From Bacteroidota bacterium (GTDB taxonomy: Bacteria > Bacteroidota > JABWAT01), in the NCBI GenBank assembly GCA_013360915.1, contig JABWAT010000002.1, positions 62,001 through 126,000 on the forward strand: DNA of 64,000 bases. Reading direction: 5' to 3'. A program made the translations under genes and the position numbers. Positions 12,217-27,130 of the stretch are shown in pieces. Below the pieces are notes generated by a model. The model saw nothing but the letters and a program-made list of their open reading frames with translations, was not told the DNA's origin and searched no databases. Within the stretch, counting starts at the first letter, position 1; each line of letters starts with the position of its first letter.

Positions 12217-12735
12217 TTACTTCTTGTCTTTGGTATTCATGGTCTTGTCGAACTGTTCGTCGAGAAGACTTGAGAAGTTGTCGTCGAAAATCTCTGAAAT
12301 GTCCACTTCCATGGATTCCGATGAGATGATCTGGCGGAGAGCTTCCTTGGCTTTTTTGGAGTAGATCCGGACCGTGCCGGGAGGAATGGAAGCTTTGAAG
12401 ATGATTTCGAGGATATACCGGTCATCCACGCTCATCAGGTAGATGCTTCGTTCCTCGCCTTCGTGGAAAAGGACTTCGAAACTGGCTTTTTCGCCGATTA
12501 GACGGGCCATTTCACTGGTTGCCGTGAAATTCGAGGCAGCCAATACCGAAAACACTTCCAGATCACGGTCTAGCAAACCGCCGATCTTGGAAAGAAGCTG
12601 ACCCGTCATGTCGCCCAGTATAATAGCGGTGGCGGCGGTTTTGGTAAACAGGTCCTTCAGGACATTGTTGGCCAATTCAATCTGATTTTCGCTGAGGTAT
12701 ACCTGACGGAAATCCTCGTTACCCGATTTTCCCAT
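12217..12735 (-). CDS. Roadblock/LC7-like regulatory protein, extended form
   Basis: This 172-aa protein has the roadblock pattern: an N-terminal helix, AIILGDMTGQLLSKIGG, a helix with LAASNFTATSEMARLIGE, then strands FEVLFHEGEERSIYLMSV and YILEIIFKAS. It adds an acidic, helical C-terminal tail of about 50 aa ending in basic residues. Bacterial roadblock proteins such as MglB regulate small Ras-like GTPases. Such a GTPase (MglA type) is encoded at 26.3 kb, and a second roadblock gene lies just upstream on the same strand. The partner is inferred, not shown. Confidence 0.75.
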   Translation of the reverse strand: MGKSGNEDFRQVYLSENQIELANNVLKDLFTKTAATAIILGDMTGQLLSKIGGLLDRDLEVFSVLAASNFTATSEMARLIGEKASFEVLFHEGEERSIYLMSVDDRYILEIIFKASIPPGTVRIYSKKAKEALRQIISSESMEVDISEIFDDNFSSLLDEQFDKTMNTKDKK

Positions 12736-12805
12736 GGACTGTCCTAAAGAATTTTAAAAGAATTTAGTGTACAAATCAGAAAAAGTCTACTTAGTCAGAG
12801 CTGGG

Positions 12806-13162
12806 TTACAGACTTTTTGCAATCTGGTCAGCAAACTTGTTCAGCTGATATCGGACATTACCGATCAGCGCCTTGTCGGTGGCAACCACGGTCAGAATAG
12901 CTCCGTTGTCATTAATGACCCGTGTGAGGATCATTCCGCCTTCATATTCAATCATTGATTGGGAAAGAGTTCCGATTCCGAGGTCTTTTCCCATTTCATC
13001 TGTGTTTCTCACTCCACCCGAAATGATTCCGGCGATGGCATCGGTATCCAGGGAACTGTTGGTAACCGACTCGATGACAAATCCATCGCGGCCGATGACC
13101 ACTGCTGCCGTGATGCCATCCACTGATATCAGGTTGGAAAGAAGGGGCTTCAGTTCTTCCAT
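12806..13162 (-). CDS. Roadblock/LC7 domain protein (MglB-like)
   Basis: A single roadblock/LC7 domain of 118 aa: helix LKPLLSNLISVDGITAAVVIGRDGFVIES, then a helix IAGIISGGVRNTDEMGKDLG, then strands MIEYEGGMILTRVINDNGAILTVVAT and a C-terminal helix. The DG...VIES turn and the overall order match MglB-type GTPase-activating or scaffold proteins. It is the first gene of the leftward roadblock-roadblock-rsmD-coaD unit and is divergent from the chemosensory cluster, so it shares the regulatory gap with the MCP gene. Confidence 0.85.
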   Translation of the reverse strand: MEELKPLLSNLISVDGITAAVVIGRDGFVIESVTNSSLDTDAIAGIISGGVRNTDEMGKDLGIGTLSQSMIEYEGGMILTRVINDNGAILTVVATDKALIGNVRYQLNKFADQIAKSL

Positions 13163-13447: not shown

Positions 13448-15958
13448 ATGGCCCTCAAAATTTTTGAAACCGGCATTTTTGCAAGCAACACAGTTCAGGG
13501 AAAGCTGACAAAAAACTTTGCAATTGTGGTTGCGATTCCGGTTTTTCTGATCGCTGCCATTCTTATGTCTACCATCTTCTTTATCACTTCCAGCCAGTCC
13601 TCCAAGTCTGCCCAGCAGCAGCTGGCTTCGGCCAAGGCGGCCATGGAAGAGCAGGGAAAGACCCTTACCCAGACGCTGACTTCCCTGAGCAGTGAGATTA
13701 ATTCGAGGGTGGTGAACACCATCGGATCCTCAGAGTTCATTGACATGATGGTCAAATTTAACCGGGGCAGCAGTGTTCCGATGCGCGAATCCGCCCGGGA
13801 AGACATCAATTCGGTTGTCTATGATAACATTGTTTCTTATGAACTCAGCTTTCTGACCGTTCTTGATAAACGGGGACGTGTTATTACCCGAGCCACTGAT
13901 CCCGGAAATTTCGGTGACGATGTTTTTATGAGGGATTACAGCAAGGATACCACGGTCACACTGGTCAGCCGGTATGTGGATGCTGCGGCTAAAACCACAG
14001 AACCTTTCTCTGGGCTGATGGTGTTGCCAGAGGATATTTTAAAGAAGGAATTGCTCATTCAGGCCAATATTCCCATCAATGTTCAGGGATTCCGGCCAGG
14101 GGAGCAGCATCTGAATGATCTCGCCACCTTCGATGTGACTCAGCCGGATGGATCAGTGAAAAAAGTGTATGCAGGTCTGACCGTCACCGTGGTGATTCCC
14201 ATTACAGACCGTTTGCAGGAAGTACTTGGTGTGGTGGTTGCCGGAAAAGTGATGGCCCGGAACAGCGTTTTTATCACCTCTAAATTCCATACCATCGTTG
14301 AAACCTCCCGTGCTTCTGCATCTATAATATCCAATGGAATCCGGATTGCCACCACCGAATCGTTTCTGGAAGGTGACAAGATGAATCAGATCGCCATCGG
14401 CGAGCCCATCAGTTCTGACTATCTTCTTCAATCTCACACAAGCGGCAGCGTGGTGGTGACCGATGCCAATACCGGTCCCATTTCAAGAGCCTATCTGCAA
14501 GTTTCTGCCCTGACTCCTTCGATGCAGTTCCGCCCGAATCAGCCCGTGCTTGCATACGGTACGGTCACCACACCCTATGCTACTTATGGCGCGGTAATTG
14601 ATGATCTGAAGGCCTCTGCAGATACCCTTCTCTACATTTCCATGTTTATTCTGTTGGTCTCCATCGCCCTTGGTTTCGGATTGGCCATCTTCTTCGCCCG
14701 GCGGTTTTCGGGAACCATGACAACCACGGTGGATAACCTGCTGGTGACCATGGACCGGGTTGCACACGGAGACTTCAATGCCAGGACCAATATCCATACC
14801 GGTGATGAATTTGAGGAACTGGGAACCCGGTTCGATGAAATGATCCGGCGTCTGTCAGCTCTGATCGAAACGGAAGCTGAACGGGACTCCATGCAGAAAC
14901 AGCTCACCAACCTTCTGGTGGTTGTATCGAACTCTGCGGAAGGTGATTTTACCCAGCGGGCGCAGGTAACCGAAGGAGCTCTCGGCGCGCTTGCAGATTC
15001 CTTCAACCTCATGGTGGATGACCTTGGCCGGCTGATCCGTGAAGTTCAGCTCGTAACCCGTCAGGTATCTGAATCTGCCAAAGAAATTCTTGCCTCCACA
15101 GAGGAAATGGCCCATGGAGCAGAGGAACAGTCCATTCAGGTAACGAACGCATCCGCGGCCGTTGAGGAAATGGCTGCCTCCATCCGGCAGGTTGCCAACA
15201 ACGCCGACTCTGCTTCAGAGGCCGCCTCCAAAGCCGCCGAAGTAGCTCAGTCGGGTGGTAACATCGTATTGGAAACGATCGAAGGGATGAGACGGATCCG
15301 TGCAACGGTACAGGATTCCGCACAGAAAATTAAATCTCTGGGTGAATCATCGAATGAAATTGGTAAGATCGTACAGGTGATTGACGAACTGGCCAGCCAG
15401 ACCAACCTGCTGGCTCTGAACGCCACCATCGAGGCCGCCCGTGCCGGTGAAGCCGGCCGAGGATTTGCGGTGGTTGCCGACCAGGTCCGTGAACTTGCTG
15501 AACGGTCTGCAAAAGCAACAAACGATATCAGTCAGCTGGTTCAAACCATCCAGGCAGAAACACAGGAAGCGGTTCATGCCATGGAAAAGGGAACAGCCGA
15601 GGTGGAAAAAGGTACAAGACTTGCCGACGAAGCTGCCCGGGCGCTCGAGCAAATCCGGTCGGTGGTACAACAATCTACCGAGTTGATTCAGGAAATCTCC
15701 CTGGCTGCCAAGCAACAGGATATTGCTTCTGCAGGCGTCGTAATGGCCATGAACGAAGTGTCCCAGATCGCTAAACAGTCTCTGATCGGGTCCCGTCAGT
15801 CGGCAGCCTCAGCCACCGACCTGGTGGAAATCACAAAGCGCCTGTCCCAATCGGTAGCCCGCTTTAAACTTCCCGGTGCCGATGATCTGATTGATGCCGG
15901 CGGAACCCAGTTCATGAGCAATTTTGGCAGCGGAGAAATGAAAATCACCACTAACTGA
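13448..15958 (+). CDS. Methyl-accepting chemotaxis protein with tandem HAMP domains
   Basis: A transmembrane chemoreceptor of 836 aa. TM1 is near residues 25-48 and TM2 near 391-418; between them lies a periplasmic sensor of about 340 aa, perhaps a double-Cache fold (not proven). After TM2 come a HAMP domain and a second HAMP-like segment (about 485-540, with [15 protein letters not shown]). The long signalling coiled coil has its hairpin tip at about 643-676 ([31 protein letters not shown]). No CheR-tethering pentapeptide is visible at the C terminus. It is the first gene of the chemosensory operon, and cheR begins 13 nt after its stop. Confidence 0.95.
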
Positions 15959-15971
15959 TTGAACCAGATCA

Positions 15972-16784
15972 GTGGTTGAAACGGATCTTTTAAGGCAGGT
16001 AAATTTTTACCTGAATCAGAAAACCGGATTGGTTCTGAGCAGGAATCAATCCGGACATCTTCAGGTCCGGTTGAAGAAAATTCTGGAAAACCATCATGCC
16101 GATCCGGCAACCGTATCGGATCTGCTTGACCGGAATCCGCAGTTCTTTGAACAAATTCTGGAAGAAGTCCTGATTAATGAATCTTACTTCTTCAGAAATC
16201 CCGATCATTTCAGAGTGCTCCGGGAAATTATCTTTCCGGTTCTGCTCGATCGGCTGGCTTTCAGGAAGGACAAATCACTCAGAGTACTCAGTATCGGATG
16301 CAGCACTGGTCAGGAACCACTTTCTATCCTGTTTACATTCTATGAAACCAATCATTCAAAGGATCCGGTCGATATACATGTGGATGCCATTGATCTGTCA
16401 AGAAAGGCCATCGTGACCGCACTGACCGGTGAATATACCAGAATGCAATCACGCGGATTGTCTGAGGAAATGACTGATAAATATTTTGTGAGGGGGTCAC
16501 GGGACCGGATCAGGGTTTTAACCGGATTTCTTGATAAAATATCCTATTACCACGGAAACATTCTGGATTTTAATCTCTACGATCACTTTTACGACCTCGT
16601 CTTTGCCAGGAATACATTGATTTACTTTGATGATGTCCGTCAGGAACAGGTCAAACAGAAACTGGTGAAAGGACTGAAGTCGGGTGGGTATCTTTTTCTG
16701 GGTGAATCCGAAATCGGCTATGGTCTTGGTGACCGGATTCAATCAATGAAATTTAACCAGAGCATCGTGTACAGGAAAAGGTGA
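15972..16784 (+). CDS. cheR: Chemoreceptor methyltransferase CheR
   Basis: CheR methylates glutamates of the receptor signalling domain using SAM. The 270 aa show an N-terminal helical domain, NESYFFRNPDHF (69-80), the SAM loop SIGCSTGQEPLSI (107-119), a DAIDLS acidic stretch, and the late FARNTLIYFDD (family RNVLIYF) with GGYLFLGESE. The start GTG 15972 has no clear Shine-Dalgarno; it is chosen because it keeps the family N terminus and follows the MCP stop closely. Confidence 0.95.
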   Translation: MVETDLLRQVNFYLNQKTGLVLSRNQSGHLQVRLKKILENHHADPATVSDLLDRNPQFFEQILEEVLINESYFFRNPDHFRVLREIIFPVLLDRLAFRKDKSLRVLSIGCSTGQEPLSILFTFYETNHSKDPVDIHVDAIDLSRKAIVTALTGEYTRMQSRGLSEEMTDKYFVRGSRDRIRVLTGFLDKISYYHGNILDFNLYDHFYDLVFARNTLIYFDDVRQEQVKQKLVKGLKSGGYLFLGESEIGYGLGDRIQSMKFNQSIVYRKR

Positions 16785-16787
16785 ACG

Positions 16788-17192
16788 GTGGGATTATCCA
16801 AGCTCGAAATTATGGAATTGTTTCTGGTGGAAGGTTTCGATCATGCCCGATCACTGGCAGAGTGTCTGAACCGGATGGAAGGGCACCCCACCGATGAAAT
16901 CCTGGAAGAAATTCACGTTCATGCCCATACCATCAAGGGCGCTGCTGCGATGGTCGGATTTATGAATACCAGTCATGTTGCCCGATTTATTGACAGGGTG
17001 GTGCTCGAAATCATTGAAAAAAAACTTCCATTTGATGACGAAGCCCATGGATTTTTACAGGAAGCCATCCCCATTGTGAACCGGTTCATCAGGAATATCA
17101 CTCTCGGTGAACTGAATGAGGCCATCATTCTGAAAGACATTGCCTCTAAATACGACCGGATCATTTCTAAGGCTGAGACCTCACATGCCTAA
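16788..17192 (+). CDS. Stand-alone histidine phosphotransfer (Hpt) protein
   Basis: A 134-aa Hpt four-helix bundle. The phosphoaccepting histidine is H47 in HAHTIKGAAAMVGF, and the pattern matches the P1 domain of CheA. No kinase domain follows in this frame. It sits directly between cheR and the giant cheA and overlaps cheA by 8 bp (ATGCCTAA). A separate Hpt could shuttle phosphate between the CheA-borne REC and the downstream REC-PATAN-roadblock protein, or act as a phosphate sink. The start GTG 16788 lies 3 nt after cheR. Confidence 0.85.
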   Translation: MGLSKLEIMELFLVEGFDHARSLAECLNRMEGHPTDEILEEIHVHAHTIKGAAAMVGFMNTSHVARFIDRVVLEIIEKKLPFDDEAHGFLQEAIPIVNRFIRNITLGELNEAIILKDIASKYDRIISKAETSHA

Positions 17193-20100
17193 TCTGAAAA
17201 AAATTAATCTCCTCGGACACCTCACCCCCAAAGTTGATTCGGCAGATGATGCTGTCCTCCGTTTTATTAACCTGCTCAGAGACCGGGTGGCGGCTGACAG
17301 CACCTCGGGTTCTGCCTTTCTTCTGTCCGCCATTCTGCAGGCTGCAGGAAACCATCTGTCAAGAGGTTTTCCCTCGTTTCGCCCCTCGGTTATGACCGAC
17401 TTCTTTGACTTTCTGGTCACTTTAAAGTCTGAGTTGAATCCGTCGGACCCGTATGATGAGAAATTTGATCAGTTAACCGCACAGATCCCAGATACAGTCA
17501 ATTATCTGATTTCGGGACTTGAGGGAATTGCCGATCAGGAAATACTTAATGAATTGCACCGGTTTGCGGGAATTCCGGTTCAGTCTTCCCAGGTAACAAC
17601 ACACGCTGAAAACAGACACCCCTCTGTTCCCGGTCAACCGCTTCCGGCCGTTCCAGATCAGCTTTCCATGCCTCCTGGCATGCTTGAGCAACTTTTTGAA
17701 GAAGGAAAACGCCAGGAAACAGTAGCACCCGTTGCACAGGTTCAGGAAATCGTATCCGCCAAACCTGCCTCTACTCTTCAAACGGTGCCGGCTTCCCTTG
17801 ACTTCGGATTTAACCTGGCCGACTTGTTCGGTGCACCTGCCCAGCCAACAGAAGAAACAGGTGCTGTTATCACTCCGGTCGGACAGTTGGTAGCCGACGT
17901 GGATTCAAATCTCCTTAGCGGACTGGTTTCTGAGCCGGAATTGACCGAAGACGTTACCGCTGAGACCGGGGCCATTCTCTTCGAAGAGCCTGAAAGTGAC
18001 ATCGTTGCAATCGACTCCCCCCTTGAAACGATGGTGGAAGAAGAAATTGATGTGGTTCTGACCGATGACCTTGCCGAACCCATCGAAGAAATTCAGGAAG
18101 TGGTTTCATTAACAGATGAGGATCTTACCACTTCAGTCGCCGACATCAGTCCCTCTCCAGAGGAAATCCATCTTGTTGAAGATTCCGGTCCCGTTCTGGA
18201 GGAAACCTCAACCGACCTGATAGAAGAAGCGGTTGAAGATGTGCAGGAAATGGTGACCGAAGAAACTTTCGAATCCACACTTGGTCAAACCGATTCCTTT
18301 GATCTGTCCGAAATTTCCGACGAGTCCGCTTCAGAGGTTTTTGAAGAGCAGGAGCTGGCTGAGGAAGTATCGGAAGAACTGGCCGGATTCCCCGAAGAAT
18401 CACCTGTGGCTGAAACTCCTGAACCAGACAGTTTCCCGGACTTTGCTGAAGTGCCGGAAACAGAACCATTCATTGCTGATAACATGAAATGGATGGTTGC
18501 TGAAATCAGGAAACAGTGGGACGCTGTTTCTGCCGGTGATCCGAATTTCGAAATAATTACCATGGGTCTGGATGAATTAATGAATACATCCGATCCGATC
18601 GCTTCTTTCCGGAACGTCAGCAGTCTGCCGGAATACAATGAATTTGTTGATTTTCTTGAAGCAGTCAGAGACAACCCTTCCTTTGACCGGTCTCTGGTAG
18701 CCAGTGAACTTCCGGTTATTGCAGACCGCGCCTTCCAGTTGTTCAATGATATTCTTTTATTGCAAACCCGTCCTGATTTGGGTGAATTGTCTGAAGGTCT
18801 GACAGATGCTCAATTGGCCGACCACGATCGCCCGGAAGTGACGGGACTGGATGAGGAAACACCCATTGAGGAAGAACCCATCATCAGCGAATCGGTTCTT
18901 GAAGACGGGGTCAGTCTGCTGGAAGGAGAAGCAGTCACTCAGGAGGATCTGATTCCTGAAACCGAGGAACCCGGAAACCGTGAGGAAACGGTACTTGCAG
19001 AACCCGGACTCGAACCAATTGATGAGACTGCGGGTCATGATTTTAAACTGGATGAGAATGCCTTTGCCGATCATGTGATTCAGACTCCGGATCAGACCAT
19101 GCTTTCGGTTCCGGCACCTACCGAACCGGTGTATTTTCAGGTCATTCAGGATGTTTACTCAGATATCAGAAAATTGAATTCCATCGGGTCGAACCGGTTA
19201 ATGATCAACCAGTTTGTTGATTTCAGCCGGAGCCTCAAGGATCCGGTTGAATTGCTTCGCGAACATACCAATGTGGAGTTTGTTCGTGAGTTCATTGAAT
19301 TTATCGATGGGTTGCATGCCCGTTATGATTCTGGTGATCAGTCTGCCTATAACGATCTGGCTACCCACCGGATGCAAATTGCCGATAAGCTGTATGACAT
19401 GCTACTCGAGCACCCGGAAATCACTGGTGAGGAACCTGAAATTTCCGATCAGTTACCTCAGGAAAGTCCGCTCCATCTGGTTCATGATTCAGGTGAATTG
19501 GTGGAAGGCAGTCTCGATCTGATCGATGAACTCTCTCATACCCATGATGAATTGTCTCAGGACCTTGCTAAAAAAGAGGAATCCACAACCGTCCCCGGAG
19601 AAGAAACCGGACTACAGGAACTTTCTGAAATTGAATCATCTGATCTGACCGATTCTTCACTCTCAGGGACCGATGAAACCGTTATTGCTGATGAGTTGGC
19701 CGGTGAAGGACTAATTGAGGAAGAAGTTCCGGTTTCTGAAGATGTGGAATCACCGGTTATTGAGGAGGAGTTCCCGGCTGAAGAGGCAACAGTTCCAGAT
19801 ACCATCGAAGATGTGCTGTCTGAAGACCTCATACAGGAAGAAGCCATTTCTGATCTTGATCTGCCGCAAGAAGTCCAGGCCGGTGACTTGCCTGCAGAGG
19901 GTATCGTTTCTGATGAACTGTCCGTTGAAGAAGCGCTGACAGAGGAACCAGTGATTGATGATACTGCAGTTGAAGAACCTCTTGCTGAAGAACCTCTTGA
20001 GGAGGAGCCGTTAGCGGAAGAACCTCTCGCAGAAGAGCCTTTGGAGGAAGAACTGCTGGCAGAAGAACCACTGCTTGAGGAAGGTCTGGCAGAGGAGCCT

Positions 20101-22635
20101 ATACCTGAAGAACCTCTTGTTGATGACCTGGCTGAACTGACCAGCCTGCCGGATGAACCGGCAGAAGTTGCTCCGGCCGCTCCTGCACCCAGACAAAAGC
20201 AGGTTCTGAATGAGATTCAGCAGGTGTTCCTGCTTGAAGCAGAAGAAAATATCCAGAAAATTTCCGATGACCTTCTGGTCCTTGAAAAAGACCTTGGTAA
20301 TGTGTCGATCATTGACGGAATCCTCCGCAGTGCCCACACCCTGAAGGGGTCGGCCGCCATGATGAAGTTTACCAACATGAGTAAACTGGGTCATAAGATG
20401 GAGGATGTGTTCCAGATTCTCCGTGATGAAAAGCTGTCGGCTGACCGTGATCTGATTGATATCATGCTGAAAGGCACCGACCTGCAGACCCTGATGCTCA
20501 AATCGCTCAGGGAGGATGGTCATGATGAGGTTCCCGGATTGCCGGAGGCCATTCACCATCTGGAACAGTATCTTAAAAAGCTGGAGGCAAAACAGGAAGG
20601 GAAAGCGTTCGTTGCCGAAAAATATGAGGCCCCGGCAGCAGAAACCACCCCGGCCATTGCACCAAAAACCGTACCGGAACCAGTCGGAGATACCTCGAGA
20701 GCGCCTTCACAACAGGATCAGCGGAAGGGAATTGTTGCCGAGCAAACGCTTCGGATCAACATCACCACACTGAACAGCCTCATCAATCTGGCCGCCGAGT
20801 TGCTGATTTCCCGTAACCGGATGAACAACCAGTTGGGATTTATGGAAGGTATTCTCCTGAAACTTCAGAAAGAGAAGATCCTGCTAAACTCCATCATGAA
20901 GAAGGTTCAGAATTTCGCAGGAAAAACCGAAGGCGGGTCCGGATACACCAGCAGCGAAGAGCCTGGCATTCTTCAGGACTTTGCTGAAACCGAGTTTGAC
21001 CGTTTCAGTGAAGTGGATATTATTCTGCGTGACATGCGCAGCAACCTTTCCAACTTTGAAGATCTGAGTTCAGAAATCAGACTGTTCGGTGATGCCTTCC
21101 GTCAGTCCATTTTGTCAGTGTCCTCCATTGCCAATGAACTGAACATTGAAATCATGTCCATGCGGATGGTTCCGGTTAAGCACATGTTTATCCGTTTCCA
21201 GCGGTCCATCAGGGATATCGGACGGGAAGAAAGCAAAGACGTGGATCTGAAAATTGAAGGAGAAGATACCCGTTTGGACAAGACCGTGATGGAAGAAGTG
21301 ATCGAACCGATCATGCACTGTGTGCGGAATGCCGTTTCACACGGAATTGAACTTCCTGAAACGCGTAAGAAGCGCGGAAAGAGTGAAACCGGACTGATTA
21401 CGCTCCGGGCCTACCAGGATGGAAACCAGGTGGTACTTGAGGTGGAAGATGACGGAAATGGGATTGATGCCGCACGGTTAAAATCATCGGCGGTTAATAA
21501 GCGGATCATTTCTCCTGAGCGTGCCGAGCAAATGACCGATACCGAGGCCATGGAACTGATGTTCGTTGCGGGCTTTTCAACCGCAGAAAAAGTGACCTCA
21601 CTGAGCGGTCGCGGTGTCGGTATGGATGTGGTTAAAAATGTGGTCAATAAGTTCAAGGGAACCATTGCCGTTAAATCAACACTTGGCAAAGGATCTTGCT
21701 TTACCATCCGGTTACCACTTACACTGGCGATCAACCAATCCCTGCTGATTCAGGTTGGTGGCCGCACTTATGCCTTCCCGCTGAATACAGTTGAAGAAAC
21801 CGTTGAACTTCACATGGAAAACATTCAACGGATTGGTGATCAGGAATTGATTACGGTGCGCAATGAAACCATTCCGCTGATTCACCTGGCCACCGTTTTG
21901 GGTATGGAAGAAGATCCGTCACAAATGAGGGCTAAATACCCGGTTGTGATCCTTTCTGAAGCCGAACAGAAGATAGCGATCCGTGTGGACCGTCTGATCG
22001 GCAAGGAAGAAATCGTTGTGAAGAATCTTGGCTCGCACCTGAAAAATGTCATGGGTGTCACCGGCGCCACCGTATTAGGAGACGGATCGGTTATTCTGAT
22101 TCTGGACGTTGCTTATCTGTTCCGTTACTGGCAGGGCGGAAGTTCACCATCCTACAGTCCGGTCCGTGCCGATTTGCACCGGTTGCCGGGCGGCGATGGA
22201 GGGAACGTCGAAGCCGAGGAACCAACGACCCCAGCGGTTCCCGACCAGCCCAAAACACGGATCCGCGGAAAAATCAGGGTGCTTTGTGCCGATGACTCGG
22301 TTTCCATCCGCAAATACGTGGAATCCCTGCTTAAACGGGAGGAATTCGAGGTCATTACGGCTCCTGATGGGGCTGAGGCCTTTGACATGGCAGAAAGAAG
22401 CCGGTTTGATCTGATTATGACTGACCTTGAGATGCCAAAGATGCACGGATATGAACTGATCAGTGCAATCCGGTCCAAACCCAATCTCGTCAATATCCCG
22501 ATTGTGATTCTGACCGCTCGTTCAGGTGAAAAACATCGCCGAAGGGGATTGGAACTAGGGGCCAATGCTTTCCTGAACAAACCATTTGACGTGGATGAAC
22601 TTTTAAGCACGATTTACAGTTTACTCCCGCGATGA
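17185..22635 (+). CDS. cheA: Giant CheA-REC hybrid kinase with three N-terminal helical repeats
   Basis: CheA phosphorylates response regulators under receptor control. Start ATG 17185 (overlapping the Hpt stop) gives 1816 aa, two to three times normal. Order: three related helical repeats (about 1-115, 433-530, 650-745) separated by acidic Glu/Pro/Thr linkers; a run of EEPLAEEP-like repeats (about 928-982); the P1 Hpt domain with His1051 in RSAHTLKGSAA; dimerisation helices (from about 1189); the ATPase domain (about 1368-1512; N box HCVRNAVSHGIE, GNGIDAARL, GRGVGMDVV); a CheW-like domain; and a C-terminal receiver (about 1697-1816) with Asp1747 in MTDLEMP. CheA-REC hybrids occur in FrzE- and PilL/ChpA-type systems that control surface motility rather than flagella. 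Confidence 0.95.
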   Translation: MPNLKKINLLGHLTPKVDSADDAVLRFINLLRDRVAADSTSGSAFLLSAILQAAGNHLSRGFPSFRPSVMTDFFDFLVTLKSELNPSDPYDEKFDQLTAQIPDTVNYLISGLEGIADQEILNELHRFAGIPVQSSQVTTHAENRHPSVPGQPLPAVPDQLSMPPGMLEQLFEEGKRQETVAPVAQVQEIVSAKPASTLQTVPASLDFGFNLADLFGAPAQPTEETGAVITPVGQLVADVDSNLLSGLVSEPELTEDVTAETGAILFEEPESDIVAIDSPLETMVEEEIDVVLTDDLAEPIEEIQEVVSLTDEDLTTSVADISPSPEEIHLVEDSGPVLEETSTDLIEEAVEDVQEMVTEETFESTLGQTDSFDLSEISDESASEVFEEQELAEEVSEELAGFPEESPVAETPEPDSFPDFAEVPETEPFIADNMKWMVAEIRKQWDAVSAGDPNFEIITMGLDELMNTSDPIASFRNVSSLPEYNEFVDFLEAVRDNPSFDRSLVASELPVIADRAFQLFNDILLLQTRPDLGELSEGLTDAQLADHDRPEVTGLDEETPIEEEPIISESVLEDGVSLLEGEAVTQEDLIPETEEPGNREETVLAEPGLEPIDETAGHDFKLDENAFADHVIQTPDQTMLSVPAPTEPVYFQVIQDVYSDIRKLNSIGSNRLMINQFVDFSRSLKDPVELLREHTNVEFVREFIEFIDGLHARYDSGDQSAYNDLATHRMQIADKLYDMLLEHPEITGEEPEISDQLPQESPLHLVHDSGELVEGSLDLIDELSHTHDELSQDLAKKEESTTVPGEETGLQELSEIESSDLTDSSLSGTDETVIADELAGEGLIEEEVPVSEDVESPVIEEEFPAEEATVPDTIEDVLSEDLIQEEAISDLDLPQEVQAGDLPAEGIVSDELSVEEALTEEPVIDDTAVEEPLAEEPLEEEPLAEEPLAEEPLEEELLAEEPLLEEGLAEEPIPEEPLVDDLAELTSLPDEPAEVAPAAPAPRQKQVLNEIQQVFLLEAEENIQKISDDLLVLEKDLGNVSIIDGILRSAHTLKGSAAMMKFTNMSKLGHKMEDVFQILRDEKLSADRDLIDIMLKGTDLQTLMLKSLREDGHDEVPGLPEAIHHLEQYLKKLEAKQEGKAFVAEKYEAPAAETTPAIAPKTVPEPVGDTSRAPSQQDQRKGIVAEQTLRINITTLNSLINLAAELLISRNRMNNQLGFMEGILLKLQKEKILLNSIMKKVQNFAGKTEGGSGYTSSEEPGILQDFAETEFDRFSEVDIILRDMRSNLSNFEDLSSEIRLFGDAFRQSILSVSSIANELNIEIMSMRMVPVKHMFIRFQRSIRDIGREESKDVDLKIEGEDTRLDKTVMEEVIEPIMHCVRNAVSHGIELPETRKKRGKSETGLITLRAYQDGNQVVLEVEDDGNGIDAARLKSSAVNKRIISPERAEQMTDTEAMELMFVAGFSTAEKVTSLSGRGVGMDVVKNVVNKFKGTIAVKSTLGKGSCFTIRLPLTLAINQSLLIQVGGRTYAFPLNTVEETVELHMENIQRIGDQELITVRNETIPLIHLATVLGMEEDPSQMRAKYPVVILSEAEQKIAIRVDRLIGKEEIVVKNLGSHLKNVMGVTGATVLGDGSVILILDVAYLFRYWQGGSSPSYSPVRADLHRLPGGDGGNVEAEEPTTPAVPDQPKTRIRGKIRVLCADDSVSIRKYVESLLKREEFEVITAPDGAEAFDMAERSRFDLIMTDLEMPKMHGYELISAIRSKPNLVNIPIVILTARSGEKHRRRGLELGANAFLNKPFDVDELLSTIYSLLPR

Positions 22636-23735
22636 TAAAAGTGGGTGTGATCTGTCCCCAGGCCCGTCAGGAAACCTGGATCAGACAGGTACTGAACGAT
22701 TCAACCGATTTTTTTGTGTCAGGGACATGGCTTCCTGACCGGTCGGTCCTGACTGATGAACATGCTGAACAGGTTGTGGTCTTTATTCTGTTCACACAGG
22801 GAATTGAAGATCTGGTTTCTGCCAAATCCCTGCTCGCAGATCTGTTCCTGCTGCATGGAAAACCCATGGTCCTGATTTCTGAACCGGAACAGGAACCTGG
22901 TCTCAGAGTCTGGAATGCGGACTTTCCGGTTCTCAGGATTTTCCTGACGGATAGCCTTCATCTTCCTGAAGTAAAGGAAGAGATCAGAGAACAGGTCCGT
23001 ATTGGCAGTTATATCGGTCCGGAAGTATTAAAGTCGTTCCGTCAGTCATCCGAGCCGGTGATCAGGCAGGAATCAGAGGTTAGCGGTCCGATTTACTGGC
23101 CGGTGACTGAGAACCAGCAGGCCGATGCGTCCGAATCCGCAGGTCAGGATGACCGGTCGGTATTGCTGATTGGAGCGTCAACAGGCGGGCCCAAAGTAAT
23201 TCTGGAAATATTTAAGGGGATGGGGCCATTTTTGCGGGAATACACGGTGATTGTGGTCCAGCATCTGTCCCATTCCTTTCTTGAAAAATTCAAATCGCAG
23301 ATCGAGACCATCACCCAGCTTCCTGTGGTGATGATTGCAGAGGGAGTGGTTCCAGAGCGCGGAACCATTTATCTGACACCGGTCAGAAGACAATTTATCA
23401 TGGGGCAGGATGGATTTTTTATTCCTGATCCGAACCGGCATCTGTACCCCTTTATGCCAAACATCGATGCCATGTTCCGAAGCACAGCATTGGTGTTCCG
23501 GACAAAAATCATGGCCGTGATTCTGAGCGGACTTGGAAAGGATGGCACAGAGGGATGCAGGATGGTCAGAACCTTTGGCGGAACTGTTATTGCACAGGAA
23601 CCAGCCACGGCAGCTGTCGATTCCATGCCCGGAGCTGTGATTTCTGAAGGATTGCATCATTATCAATTCCCCCCACGTGAAATTTATCGGTTTTTGAAGA
23701 ACAATGGAATCCGTCTTAAGCATGCACACAACTAA
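22632..23735 (+). CDS. cheB: CheB-type methylesterase with degenerate receiver
   Basis: CheB removes methyl groups from receptors and deamidates glutamines. The C-terminal catalytic domain is intact: Ser183 in LLIGASTGGPK, His211 in VVQHLSHSF and Asp304 in LSGLGKDGTEG. The first ~130 aa occupy the receiver position but lack the acidic pocket and the usual D-x-x-MP phosphorylation loop; the matching region reads VVVFILFTQGIED. The N terminus is therefore probably a pseudo-receiver, and CheB activity may not depend on phosphorylation. The start overlaps cheA by 4 bp. Length 367 aa is normal. Confidence 0.92.
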   Translation: MIKVGVICPQARQETWIRQVLNDSTDFFVSGTWLPDRSVLTDEHAEQVVVFILFTQGIEDLVSAKSLLADLFLLHGKPMVLISEPEQEPGLRVWNADFPVLRIFLTDSLHLPEVKEEIREQVRIGSYIGPEVLKSFRQSSEPVIRQESEVSGPIYWPVTENQQADASESAGQDDRSVLLIGASTGGPKVILEIFKGMGPFLREYTVIVVQHLSHSFLEKFKSQIETITQLPVVMIAEGVVPERGTIYLTPVRRQFIMGQDGFFIPDPNRHLYPFMPNIDAMFRSTALVFRTKIMAVILSGLGKDGTEGCRMVRTFGGTVIAQEPATAAVDSMPGAVISEGLHHYQFPPREIYRFLKNNGIRLKHAHN

Positions 23736-24171
23736 GCAGGTGACCCCAACCGGCCGGCTGGTCAGAGGATCCTTTCGTTTGCTGGTTTTCGAAATTGGCA
23801 ATCACCGGATGTCCACACCGGTTGAAACGGTCAGAACCATTGCCGATTATGATGACAGTCTTCAGTTTAATGAAGGCGAAACATCGGGAATCCGGCTGAA
23901 TCTGGTAGACATTGTGAACCTGTATTTTCCTGATGAAACCGGAAATCAGGGGTATGAAAAGAAGCTGATCGTTCTGAAAAGCAACGACCCGGTTATTCAT
24001 GGCATCATTGTGGACCGTGTGTTCGGTGTGGGAACGTTTACCGACATGTATCCGGTGCCTGCGGGAATTTTTAACATTCCCGAGGGTATTATCACCCATC
24101 TGGTGTGTTCCGAGGAACCCTGGATGGAGGTTGTGAATCTGCAGAAAATTGCAGAGATTAATATCACATGA
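23722..24171 (+). CDS. cheW: CheW-like adaptor (first copy)
   Basis: CheW couples CheA to receptors through two SH3-like barrels. The protein shows RLLVFEIGNHRMSTPVETV at the N terminus, RLNLVDIVNLYF, KLIVLKS and HGIIVDRVFGVGTFTD, all in CheW order. ATG 23722 overlaps the end of cheB (149 aa). An in-frame ATG at 23704 would add 6 residues and cannot be excluded. Two different CheW genes in series suggest two adaptor roles, for example array and core linkage. Confidence 0.85.
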   Translation: MHTTKQVTPTGRLVRGSFRLLVFEIGNHRMSTPVETVRTIADYDDSLQFNEGETSGIRLNLVDIVNLYFPDETGNQGYEKKLIVLKSNDPVIHGIIVDRVFGVGTFTDMYPVPAGIFNIPEGIITHLVCSEEPWMEVVNLQKIAEINIT

Positions 24172-24180
24172 GGCAAACTG

Positions 24181-24630
24181 GTGGCTAATCTACAATTACT
24201 GGTATTCAAACTGAGCGATACCGATTTTGCCATGGAAATTTCGGCCATTTCCCGTGTGGTTGATACGCTGCAAAGCCGGTTTCTTTCTACCCTTCGGTCT
24301 GGAATCGAGGGTCTTTTTCTGTTTGAAGGGCGGGTGGTTCCGGTTATCAGGCTCGATGAAATGCTTGGGTTTCCTTCTGCCAACATATTTGCATCCAATC
24401 CGGATGAATCGGTGATTATCGTCAACCAGGCTGGTTACTTTCTCGCCTTCCGGGTTGACAGTGTGGAAGGGATCGATAATATTACCCCTGAAACCCTTCG
24501 GCCAACCTCTGAAACCGATACCAGGGAGGCTGGTCTTAATCATCATATGATCGGTGAGGTCTATCACCGTCAATCCGGACCGGTTTTTAAACTGAATCCG
24601 GATCATTTATTAACTCATTCTATCGGATAA
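24181..24630 (+). CDS. cheW: CheW-like adaptor (second copy)
   Basis: A second CheW-domain protein of 149 aa: LQLLVFKLSDTDFAMEISAISRVV, GLFLFEGRVVPVIRLDEMLGF, SVIIVNQAGYFLAFRVDSVEGI. It is only distantly like the preceding CheW, so it is not a recent tandem copy. The start is GTG 24181, 9 nt after the previous stop. It may serve the CheA-array interface; the division of labour with the first copy cannot be read from sequence. Confidence 0.85.
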   Translation: MANLQLLVFKLSDTDFAMEISAISRVVDTLQSRFLSTLRSGIEGLFLFEGRVVPVIRLDEMLGFPSANIFASNPDESVIIVNQAGYFLAFRVDSVEGIDNITPETLRPTSETDTREAGLNHHMIGEVYHRQSGPVFKLNPDHLLTHSIG

Positions 24631-24640
24631 CAGGATTTTT

Positions 24641-25879
24641 GTGGAAAAGAAAAAGATACTGATCGTTGATGACGAGGAAACCATAGCCTGGGGGATCTCG
24701 AAGACCCTCTCACAGTCCGGTGAAATCCCTGTTGAAACTTCCTACACGACCAAGGCCACCGAAGCAGCCACGCTGCTGGCCTCGAACCGGTATGATCTGG
24801 TGATCACCGACATCCGGATGCCCGATATGTCCGGAATTGACCTGCTGAAGGAAGTCAAAGACAAATACCCCGAAACGGGTGTTATTATTATGACAGCCTA
24901 TGGTTCCACCGAGGTTCAGCAGGAAGCCTCTAAGCGGGGCAGCATTTTCTATATTGAGAAACCATTCGATATCAAGGTTCTCAAAAAGGTGATAACCGAA
25001 TATTTCACCAAGAAGGAAACCGGGGAATCGAAAAAAGAGGTTCAGGATACTCCCGGTGACGATACCTTTAAAGGAAACATTGGAACCCTCCAGTTAATGG
25101 ATGTGGTCCAGATGAACTGTCTCGGACGGATCACCACCTGTCTGAAGGTCACCGATGGGGCAAGGGACGGTATCATTGTCTTTAAAAAAGGAGACATCGT
25201 CCACGCAGAAACCAGTGGAATGGTAGGAAAAGAGGCCTTTTTCAATATTGCTTCCTGGAAAGGTGGCAGTTTTGATATGCTCAATGAGATCCCATCACAG
25301 GTGACCATCATCGATCATTGGGAACAACTGCTAATTGAAGCCCTGCAGGTTTTGGATGACGGTAGTCAGGATAACATTGCCGGAGATGATTTTGACTTTG
25401 ATTTCGGGCAGCCCCCTTCAGGGACGACCCTTGCTGCTGCTCCATCCGAACCGGAAGTACCCCAGGCACCCGTCAGTCCGGTTGAGGCACAAGGTGATCT
25501 GCTGCCATCTGAATTACCAGCCGATGATACCAGCACACTTCTGGACCGTTTGATGAAGATGGTGTCTGCTGAAGCGGTGTTTATCATGACACCAGACGGA
25601 TTTGTCATTGATCGGAAAATCAGAAATTCTGATCTGAAGATTGAACAGTCGGGTGAAATCATTTCCAGGTCCCTGTCCGCATTTATCGAACTGGGAAATT
25701 CCATGGCTTCCGGCGACCTGAACCGTGTGGTGATGTCATACATGGATAAGTATCTGGTGGTGAAGGCCATTCCAAACAGCGAACTGCTGTTTGTTGTGCT
25801 GACCCCGATCTCCCAGAAACTGGAAAGTATCCTTCCGGTTGTTGATAAAGAAGCTCAAAATCTCACGAATCTGATATAG
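24641..25879 (+). CDS. Response regulator REC-PATAN-roadblock fusion
   Basis: This 412-aa protein probably carries the output of the chemosensory kinase. The N-terminal receiver has DD at 10-11, phosphoacceptor Asp57 in VITDIRMPDMSG, Thr84 in MTAYG and Lys107 in IEKPFD. A PATAN/DUF4388 domain follows (about 143-230: FKGNIGTLQLMDVVQMN, GIIVFKKGDIVHAET, FFNIASWKGGSFDM). After a Pro/Glu linker comes a C-terminal roadblock/LC7 domain (about 305-412: EAVFIMTPDGFVID, RVVMSYMDKYLVVKAI, LFVVLTP). Roadblock domains act on MglA-type GTPases, and one is encoded two genes downstream. The inference is a regulator that turns CheA phosphorylation into GTPase control. Start GTG 24641. Confidence 0.88.
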   Translation: MEKKKILIVDDEETIAWGISKTLSQSGEIPVETSYTTKATEAATLLASNRYDLVITDIRMPDMSGIDLLKEVKDKYPETGVIIMTAYGSTEVQQEASKRGSIFYIEKPFDIKVLKKVITEYFTKKETGESKKEVQDTPGDDTFKGNIGTLQLMDVVQMNCLGRITTCLKVTDGARDGIIVFKKGDIVHAETSGMVGKEAFFNIASWKGGSFDMLNEIPSQVTIIDHWEQLLIEALQVLDDGSQDNIAGDDFDFDFGQPPSGTTLAAAPSEPEVPQAPVSPVEAQGDLLPSELPADDTSTLLDRLMKMVSAEAVFIMTPDGFVIDRKIRNSDLKIEQSGEIISRSLSAFIELGNSMASGDLNRVVMSYMDKYLVVKAIPNSELLFVVLTPISQKLESILPVVDKEAQNLTNLI

Positions 25880-25886
25880 GATTGTT

Positions 25887-26252
25887 ATGTCGACCAGCTT
25901 AAAAGATGTTTTGCAGCCATTGACTTCCATGGAAACCGTATTGGGTGTTGTTCTGGTCGATCCGGATGGATTGGTCATGGAATCCACCTTTCCGACAGAC
26001 ACTGACCCGGAATTACTGGCTTCAGTCTATGCCATACTTGACCTGAATATCAAGGGCCAACTTGGTAAACTGGGTGAGTCGGCAAACCAGGTTTTCTTTT
26101 CAACAGGGGATAAACTGATTCTGATTCAAAAGATTGAAGATGTTATCTTAGTATTGTATACTCGCAAATCTGACCTGGCAGAGTTGCAGAGTCGCTTACT
26201 TTCAACCGGAACCAAAGTTATCGAATTTTTGAACCTGTCATCGGCTGTATAA
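25887..26252 (+). CDS. Roadblock/LC7 domain protein (MglB-like)
   Basis: A single-domain roadblock protein of 121 aa: LKDVLQPLTSMETVLGVVLVDPDGLVMEST, then a helix DPELLASVYAILDLNIKGQLGKLG, strands QVFFSTGDKLILIQKIEDVILVLYT and a final helix. It lies 7 nt after the REC-PATAN-roadblock gene and 38 nt before the MglA-type GTPase. The mglB-mglA order is the same as in Myxococcus and Thermus. It is the most likely GTPase-activating partner of the downstream protein. Confidence 0.87.
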   Translation: MSTSLKDVLQPLTSMETVLGVVLVDPDGLVMESTFPTDTDPELLASVYAILDLNIKGQLGKLGESANQVFFSTGDKLILIQKIEDVILVLYTRKSDLAELQSRLLSTGTKVIEFLNLSSAV

Positions 26253-26290
26253 GCCTGAGACGGGTCAGATTGTAATATAAAGAGGTTATT

Positions 26291-27103
26291 ATGGCATCAA
26301 TTAATTATGCAAACCGGGAAATCGTAATCAAGATTGTTTATTACGGTCCCGGTCTCAGTGGAAAAACAACTAACCTTCAGGTGATTCACCAGAACGTTCC
26401 GGATAACACCCGCGGAAACATGATTTCCCTGGCAACGGAAGCTGACCGGACCCTCTTTTTCGACTTACTTCCTCTGAATCTTGGAAGTGTAAAAGGGTTC
26501 AATACCAAGTTTCAGTTGTATACCGTTCCCGGACAGGTGTATTACAATGCCACCCGTAAGCTGGTATTAAAAGGGGTTGACGGTGTGGTTTTTGTTGCGG
26601 ATTCCACACAGGGAAAGATGAACGAAAACATTGAATCACTCCAGAACCTGAAGGATAACCTTGCTGAGTATGGAATTGATTTGAATAATTTCCCGCTGGT
26701 CTTACAATACAACAAACGGGATCTTCAGAACATTTTCACGGTGGATGAGCTTAACAAGGCGCTCAACCCGAACAATGTTCCTTTTGTTGAAGCGTCGGTT
26801 ATCAAAAACATCGGTGTTTTTGAAGTTCTGAAAGCTATCAGCCGTGAAACGCTTGCCCGTATTAACAAACAATCTACACCGGCCACTCCCGGACAGGCAC
26901 AGGCACCTGCTGCCCAACCAGCACCCACACCGGCTCCGCAACCAGCACCCGCAGCTGCGGCTCCTCAACCGGCTCCGCAGCCTGCACCTGCAGCTCAACC
27001 TGCACCTGCAGCCCAGCCTGCCCAGCAACCGGCTCAACCCGGTCAGCCGCAGCAGGGAGGGGCCTTCTTCAAGAATCTCATCAATAAGATGGACAACAAA
27101 TAA
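26291..27103 (+). CDS. mglA: MglA-type Ras-like GTPase with Ala/Pro/Gln-rich tail
   Basis: MglA GTPases set cell polarity and motility direction in gliding or twitching bacteria. Motifs in the 270 aa are the P loop GPGLSGKTT (19-27), the switch II/G3 region TVPGQ (78-82; Gly-Gln in place of the Ras DxxG, as in MglA) and NKRD (141-144). After the GTPase domain (to about residue 195) comes a low-complexity tail of about 60 residues made mostly of Ala, Pro and Gln, ending in a short amphipathic FFKNLINKM segment. The tail is unusual for MglA, and the end could bind a membrane or partner. A strong terminator follows, which closes the chemosensory-GTPase unit. Confidence 0.9.
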   Translation: MASINYANREIVIKIVYYGPGLSGKTTNLQVIHQNVPDNTRGNMISLATEADRTLFFDLLPLNLGSVKGFNTKFQLYTVPGQVYYNATRKLVLKGVDGVVFVADSTQGKMNENIESLQNLKDNLAEYGIDLNNFPLVLQYNKRDLQNIFTVDELNKALNPNNVPFVEASVIKNIGVFEVLKAISRETLARINKQSTPATPGQAQAPAAQPAPTPAPQPAPAAAAPQPAPQPAPAAQPAPAAQPAQQPAQPGQPQQGGAFFKNLINKMDNK

Positions 27104-27130
27104 AAAAAGGCCGGGTAACCGGCCTTTTTT
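27103..27130 (+). terminator. Rho-independent terminator after mglA
   Basis: GGCCGG (27109-27114) pairs with CCGGCC (27119-27124) around a GTAA loop, extended by A6/T6 pairing. The T tract at 27125-27130 completes an intrinsic terminator. It starts at the mglA stop codon and marks the end of the chemosensory cluster. Confidence 0.92.

Follow-up and report, generated by a model that had tools for sequence, protein, structure and literature searches.

How a chemosensory signal reaches MglA is still partly open in Myxococcus, because the relay there consists of several unlinked proteins. The stretch of DNA analysed here (the window, 64,000 nucleotides from contig JABWAT010000002.1 of a Bacteroidota bacterium) raises the question of whether the link from sensing to MglA can be made by a single protein, a putative role for a receiver-PATAN-roadblock protein (RPR) which is encoded in one operon with the GTPase and occurs in four families. 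The features on which the answer depends are given below with the evidence for each assignment.

12217-12735, minus strand: MglB orthologue, 172 aa, candidate GAP/GEF with an acidic C-terminal helix (phmmer and alignment)
12806-13162, minus strand: RB1, another small protein of the roadblock type, 118 aa (Robl_LC7, E 3e-12)
13448-15958, plus strand: methyl-accepting chemoreceptor with two HAMP domains and MCPsignal (Pfam)
15972-16784, plus strand: CheR methyltransferase (Pfam, E 4e-41)
16788-17192, plus strand: stand-alone Hpt protein (Pfam, E 2e-9)
17185-22635, plus strand: CheA with Hpt, HATPase_c kinase, CheW and C-terminal Response_reg domains, FrzE-like (Pfam)
22632-23735, plus strand: CheB methylesterase with no recognisable receiver (CheB_methylest, E 4e-42)
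23704-24171, plus strand: CheW 1, divergent (Pfam, E 0.003, below cut-off; orthologues in genomes G001 and G003)
24181-24630, plus strand: CheW 2 (Pfam, E 6e-18)
24641-25879, plus strand: RPR, with receiver (24656-24994), PATAN/DUF4388 (25070-25360) and C-terminal roadblock (25535-25876)
25887-26252, plus strand: RB3, stand-alone roadblock protein, diverged from MglB (Robl_LC7, E 3e-8)
26291-27103, plus strand: MglA, with GTPase domain (residues 1-193), Pro/Ala-rich linker and tail FFKNLINKM (phmmer)
27103-27130, no strand assigned: terminator-like bidirectional hairpin closing the operon (12-pair stem with a T tract)

From the chemoreceptor gene through mglA, the spacing between genes ranges from -32 to +38 bp, with 7 bp separating rpr from the RB3 gene and 38 bp separating the latter from mglA. 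The hairpin after mglA is a strong one. The gene order agrees with the original prediction, which had placed the fusion inside a chemosensory operon ending in mglA and had noted the separate roadblock gene and the MglA-type GTPase that follow it. Such a layout hints that sensing is coupled to steering by an unusually short route. As in the Frz system of M. xanthus, the cluster encodes a chemoreceptor, CheW, CheR, CheB and a CheA with a fused receiver; FrzE of M. xanthus is likewise a CheA with its own C-terminal receiver. The cluster had been described as lacking CheY, which holds for stand-alone genes but not for the C-terminal receiver of CheA (Response_reg, E 4e-28). No FrzX/FrzZ-type single- or double-receiver output was found inside the cluster. 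The N-terminal 173 aa of CheB (22632-23150) gave no Response_reg match, and since no receiver is recognisable there, control of the methylesterase may not depend on CheA. The Hpt domain of CheA is preceded by about 1000 N-terminal residues of acidic, repetitive sequence (17185-20200), and the CheAs of G007 and G086 exceed that of the window in length, at about 2455 aa and 2265 aa, respectively.

RPR is a protein of 412 aa with a GTG start, encoded in a single reading frame. Its residues 6-118 match Response_reg (E 4e-24) and residues 144-240 match DUF4388/PATAN (E 2e-15), and the Pfam match of residues 299-386 to Robl_LC7 is weak (E 0.015), sub-threshold for the window sequence alone. Robl_LC7 matches were obtained for all six aligned orthologues (best E 4.5e-5), and two orthologues exceed the curated cut-off. 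As a phmmer search of the PDB with the roadblock domain alone found no roadblock relative, a fold comparison was needed. The AlphaFold2 model of RPR (mean pLDDT only 57, with values of 68-85 across residues 361-412) shows in its C-terminal region the succession helix-strand-strand-helix-strand-strand-strand-helix, which is the roadblock order, and in Foldseek this region aligned with the MglB chain of the M. xanthus complex of MglA and MglB (6izw_C; E 5e-8, rmsd 2.2, 112 columns). The orthologue matches, the predicted fold order and the Foldseek match together support the roadblock call, and the earlier reading of a receiver with intact Asp57, a PATAN domain and a roadblock domain in one polypeptide is confirmed. 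The phosphorylation residues (Asp57, D10, D11, T85, Y104 and K107) are invariant across the 10 aligned orthologues, so that the receiver should in principle be phosphorylatable; it is most similar to NtrC-type receivers. A chance ORF is ruled out by conservation (38-73% identity over four families). The linker GDDFDFDFGQ, which is acidic-aromatic like pocket-binding acidic helices, was dropped as a candidate since it is limited to the window organism's own family.

The conservation of this arrangement was examined in a sample of 395 Bacteroidota genomes, the genome of the window being G000. As had been proposed, the fusion was searched for beside mglA in other genomes: it is present in full in 16 of the 395, and MglA in 17, so that RPR occurs in 16 of the 17 MglA genomes and MglA in every RPR genome. 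In all 16, mglA lies about 0.45 kb downstream of rpr, with RB3 between them at every locus read; in one genome the contig ends within mglA. CheA adjoins the unit in 14 of the 16. The two others each have a CheA elsewhere in the genome; G280 has only the CheW pair beside the unit, and G136 neither CheA nor the pair. In G136 (G136:C4:841290-843491, L085) the RPR-RB3-mglA genes lie far from the single CheA and have as neighbours a gene for a DnaA-type protein and one for a DNA polymerase of family B. The 16 genomes are spread over four families, and therefore possibly represent few evolutionary events; the co-occurrence may simply be a product of vertical descent within one clade. A Chloroherpetonaceae and a Chlorobiales MAG are among the named relatives, and G007 fits Chloroherpeton thalassium, an assignment which we take as a lead. 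Within the family, identity is 90-92% for MglB and 95% for MglA, and 71-72% for RPR and 60-66% for RB3.

RB3 had been labelled MglB-like, which the alignment contradicts: its hairpin at the Arg98 site is 3 residues shorter and contains no Arg, and there is no C-terminal helix, so that RB3 was rejected as MglB for want of catalytic features. Its predicted model (pLDDT 74) matches roadblock folds in Foldseek with an E of about 1e-7. The actual MglB orthologue is encoded about 14 kb upstream on the opposite strand. Together with RB1 it forms a divergent pair of roadblock genes (12217-13162) with which the cluster begins, and which the original prediction overlooked. The orthologue aligns with M. 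xanthus MglB (6h5b) at a phmmer E of 1.8e-14, C-terminal extension included, and with the NCBIfam MglB model at an E of 4e-19, under that model's cut-off. Arg98, the GAP residue of MglB (PMC11016934), is kept (it is Lys in G007), the position of Asn37 is occupied by Thr, and the acidic C-terminal helix, EIFDDNFSSLLDEQF, is nearly invariant among relatives. The gene adjoins the chemoreceptor gene in G001, G002, G003, G007, G086 and G390. RB1, which is kept in G001-G003, G007 and G086, has neither Arg98 nor the C-terminal helix according to the alignment and is possibly MglC-like. The RPR roadblock domain resembles MglB in fold only: in all 10 aligned RPRs the position of Arg98 is Asp or Glu, Asn37 is not retained, and the protein ends at the last roadblock helix, without the acidic C-terminal GEF helix. 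Of the four roadblock domains in the cluster, only one has catalytic features, and RB1, RB3 and RPR are candidates for an MglC role by their missing catalytic features only.

MglA of the window aligns with M. xanthus MglA (6hjh; phmmer E 7e-74) without gaps across residues 1-193. R53, T54, G81 and Q82 are invariant, and the P-loop, Arg53, Thr54, Gln82 and gapless GTPase-domain similarity are consistent with a group-1-type MglA. The pocket receiving the MglB C-terminal helix in M. xanthus MglA is formed by Leu64, Ile67, Lys181 and Lys185 (PMC6785124), and these positions are occupied here by L64, V67, K181 and R185. The linker and tail (residues 194-270) follow, and the motif FFK(N/G/S)L-x-(N/K)-(K/R)-M closes every one of the 14 distinct full-length MglA sequences that were read at RPR loci. 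It is missing from three other MglAs (L016, L019 and the second MglA of G007). This conserved C-terminal tail on the MglA of RPR loci is a new feature. As a helix it would be modestly amphipathic (shuffle p 0.036), and it may, speculatively, be a membrane or partner anchor.

Related parts were also found as separate genes. At L019, on a contig labelled Calditrichaceae, a HisKA kinase, a receiver, a PATAN protein with a roadblock-like C-terminus, a small roadblock-like protein, MglB and MglA are encoded, and L016 (labelled Caldisericaceae, grouped with Calditrichota by similarity only) has the same gene order; the roadblock assignments at both loci were made by eye, below Pfam thresholds. These loci possibly represent an ancestral form of the module. 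Both (L016:2021-5584 and L019:9989-15195) also encode a HAMP-like membrane protein. The second locus of G007 (L037:7562-9831) has the order MglB, MglA, small protein and a PATAN-roadblock protein without receiver (roadblock E 2e-13). That the parts are fused in one lineage and neighbours in another supports a joint function.

We consider it probable that the window encodes a Frz-like chemosensory system wired to an MglA polarity module held in one cluster, with RPR as the phospho-switch. The receptor and the CheW pair would control CheA, and CheA (and Hpt) would phosphorylate RPR, which has the cluster's sole trans-acting receiver; like that of FrzE, the receiver fused to CheA would serve as a sink or brake. 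The phosphorylation of RPR would then alter the engagement of RB3, RB1, MglB and/or MglA by the PATAN and roadblock domains, the altered contacts would shift the MglB-controlled GTP/GDP state or the location of MglA, and this shift would change the direction or frequency of gliding. The sequences themselves show the domains, the conserved active-site residues, the gene order, the co-occurrence, a canonical MglB and a matching MglA pocket, and from there we infer the phosphotransfer from CheA to RPR, the roadblock contacts and the effect on gliding. The wiring as a whole is supported by the invariable neighbourhood of rpr and mglA, the CheA linkage in 14 of 16 genomes, the invariant RPR receiver, the receiver on CheA, the MglB helix and MglA pocket, the split Calditrichota genes, and the FliG, PilB/PilT, SprA and gliding data given below. 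RPR had been regarded as the natural target of CheA, an argument which overlooked the CheA-fused receiver and the unlinked CheY-like proteins of G000 and G007 and is weakened by them; stand-alone CheY-like receivers are present elsewhere in G000, and such proteins could be the main CheA targets. The NtrC-type receiver of RPR, the HisKA kinase beside its split relatives and the want of a linked CheA in G136 and G280 also speak against the wiring, as does the possible origin of the co-occurrence in vertical descent. An adaptor phosphorylated mainly by a HisKA kinase, the che linkage reflecting shared polar localisation, would account for the receiver type, for the kinase adjoining the split genes and for the G136 locus, but it is improbable given that CheA lies beside RPR in 14 of the 16 loci and that no HisKA-type kinase gene was seen beside the listed fused loci, whose genes were domain-scanned in part.

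As to how RPR would act on the GTPase, phosphorylation had been proposed to act directly on the GTPase cycle, and in its fullest form this would mean that the RPR roadblock binds MglA directly and that phosphorylation switches RPR's own GAP or GEF activity. Consistent with such direct action, the roadblock part of the RPR model finds its best match in an MglB taken from an MglA-MglB complex, and rpr and mglA are invariably neighbours. The signatures it would be expected to leave are however missing, as is apparent from the Asp or Glu at the Arg98 position, the loss of Asn37 and the absence of the GEF helix, and the cluster has its own gene for a canonical MglB, all of which make a catalytic RPR unlikely. 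Since RPR and RB3 are without the known GAP and GEF features, a role as adaptor or regulator (FrzX-, RomR- or MglC-like) seems more likely from the alignments, and the MglB elsewhere in the cluster, together with the CheA receiver and the other CheY-like proteins, makes direct GAP or GEF action less so. An RPR that acts as an adaptor or allosterically, perhaps by way of MglB or of roadblock heterodimers, fits better. One such arrangement, which we put forward tentatively, is that RPR and RB3 (or RB1) form a roadblock heterodimer that recruits MglB or MglA to a pole in a RomR/MglC-like, non-catalytic manner. Having four roadblock domains with a single catalytic one is in keeping with it, as is MglC, which no longer binds MglA but does bind MglB and RomR (PMC7949163); pairing specificity, on the other hand, is not readable from sequence alone. 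The heterodimer is compatible with the proposed wiring of CheA to MglA through RPR, and is its most likely molecular form. It is rather doubtful that phosphorylated RPR acts on MglA via its own roadblock, by itself or paired with RB3, in place of FrzX, FrzZ, RomR and RomX, and that a tail-anchored MglA sets the gliding direction in this SprA-containing lineage without PilT-type retraction.

The RPR-RB3-mglA arrangement is real and conserved, and we read it as a variant of the Frz-Mgl wiring in which the fusion appears to be new. With M. xanthus it shares an extra roadblock paralogue as well as an MglA and an MglB that agree in their GAP and helix features. The cluster differs in that all parts are held together, that one receiver-PATAN-roadblock protein would take the place of FrzX, FrzZ and RomR as output, that there are four roadblock domains and an added C-terminal MglA tail, and that there is no sign of a PilB/PilT pair such as serves S-motility. 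RPR is not of the RomR type, having PATAN and roadblock domains after the receiver and no Pro-rich/Glu-rich C-terminal region. The gene link between PATAN and mglA reportedly goes back to Makarova (2006). PATAN genes near group 1 and 5 mglA are already known (Wuichet and Sogaard-Andersen 2014, PMC4316618), and here too PATAN is encoded beside MglA and MglB, but it forms the middle of a fusion, flanked by a receiver and a roadblock, within a CheA operon. In the papers covered, no description was found of PATAN and roadblock in one protein, or of the RPR fusion in a chemosensory mglA operon. Actinobacterial conservons (CvnA-D) similarly have a kinase, a roadblock protein and an MglA-type GTPase in one operon, but lack a receiver (PMC4316618) and have a CvnA-type histidine kinase rather than CheA.

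The output of the system was addressed in five genomes (G000-G003 and G007). FliG_C is absent from all five while the controls matched, and each of the five encodes SprA of the type IX system. G000-G003 gave a single strong T2SSE ATPase match apiece and G007 gave none, with no sign of a PilB/PilT pair in these matches. Twitching by type IV pili was dropped as the output because the single ATPase of G000 adjoins a secretin-like gene (by eye) and G007 has none. A GldL family search matched no genome, controls included, and says nothing on the gliding motor. With no FliG, no PilB/PilT pair and SprA present, gliding is the likeliest output. The window organism, itself presumably motile, is a relative of the gliding green sulfur bacteria. 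MglA polarity control is thus placed in a lineage with SprA and without FliG or a PilB/PilT pair, which makes the gliding motor of these bacteria a testable question, and C. thalassium, the candidate identity of G007, is a cultured gliding host in which the wiring could be tested. C. thalassium is a glider and Thermochlorobacter is regarded as one, and the Chlorobiaceae lack motility (PMC9318685).

RPR also combines a receiver and PATAN in one protein, in a chemosensory context, as do the cyanobacterial PatA/PixG-type regulators, but unlike in these its receiver is N-terminal and a roadblock follows PATAN. The PatA/PixG order, PATAN-receiver, occurs in a separate cluster of the window organism's genome (G000:C1:252000-260000; L041:3301-8000 and L043), where it is accompanied by CheY, CheW, an unknown protein and a chemoreceptor, without CheA. 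This cluster, which is also found in G007, resembles the Pix-type order of cyanobacteria and possibly draws on the CheA encoded in the window; G000 encodes a second CheA, and G007 shows a single CheA-sized CheW frame.
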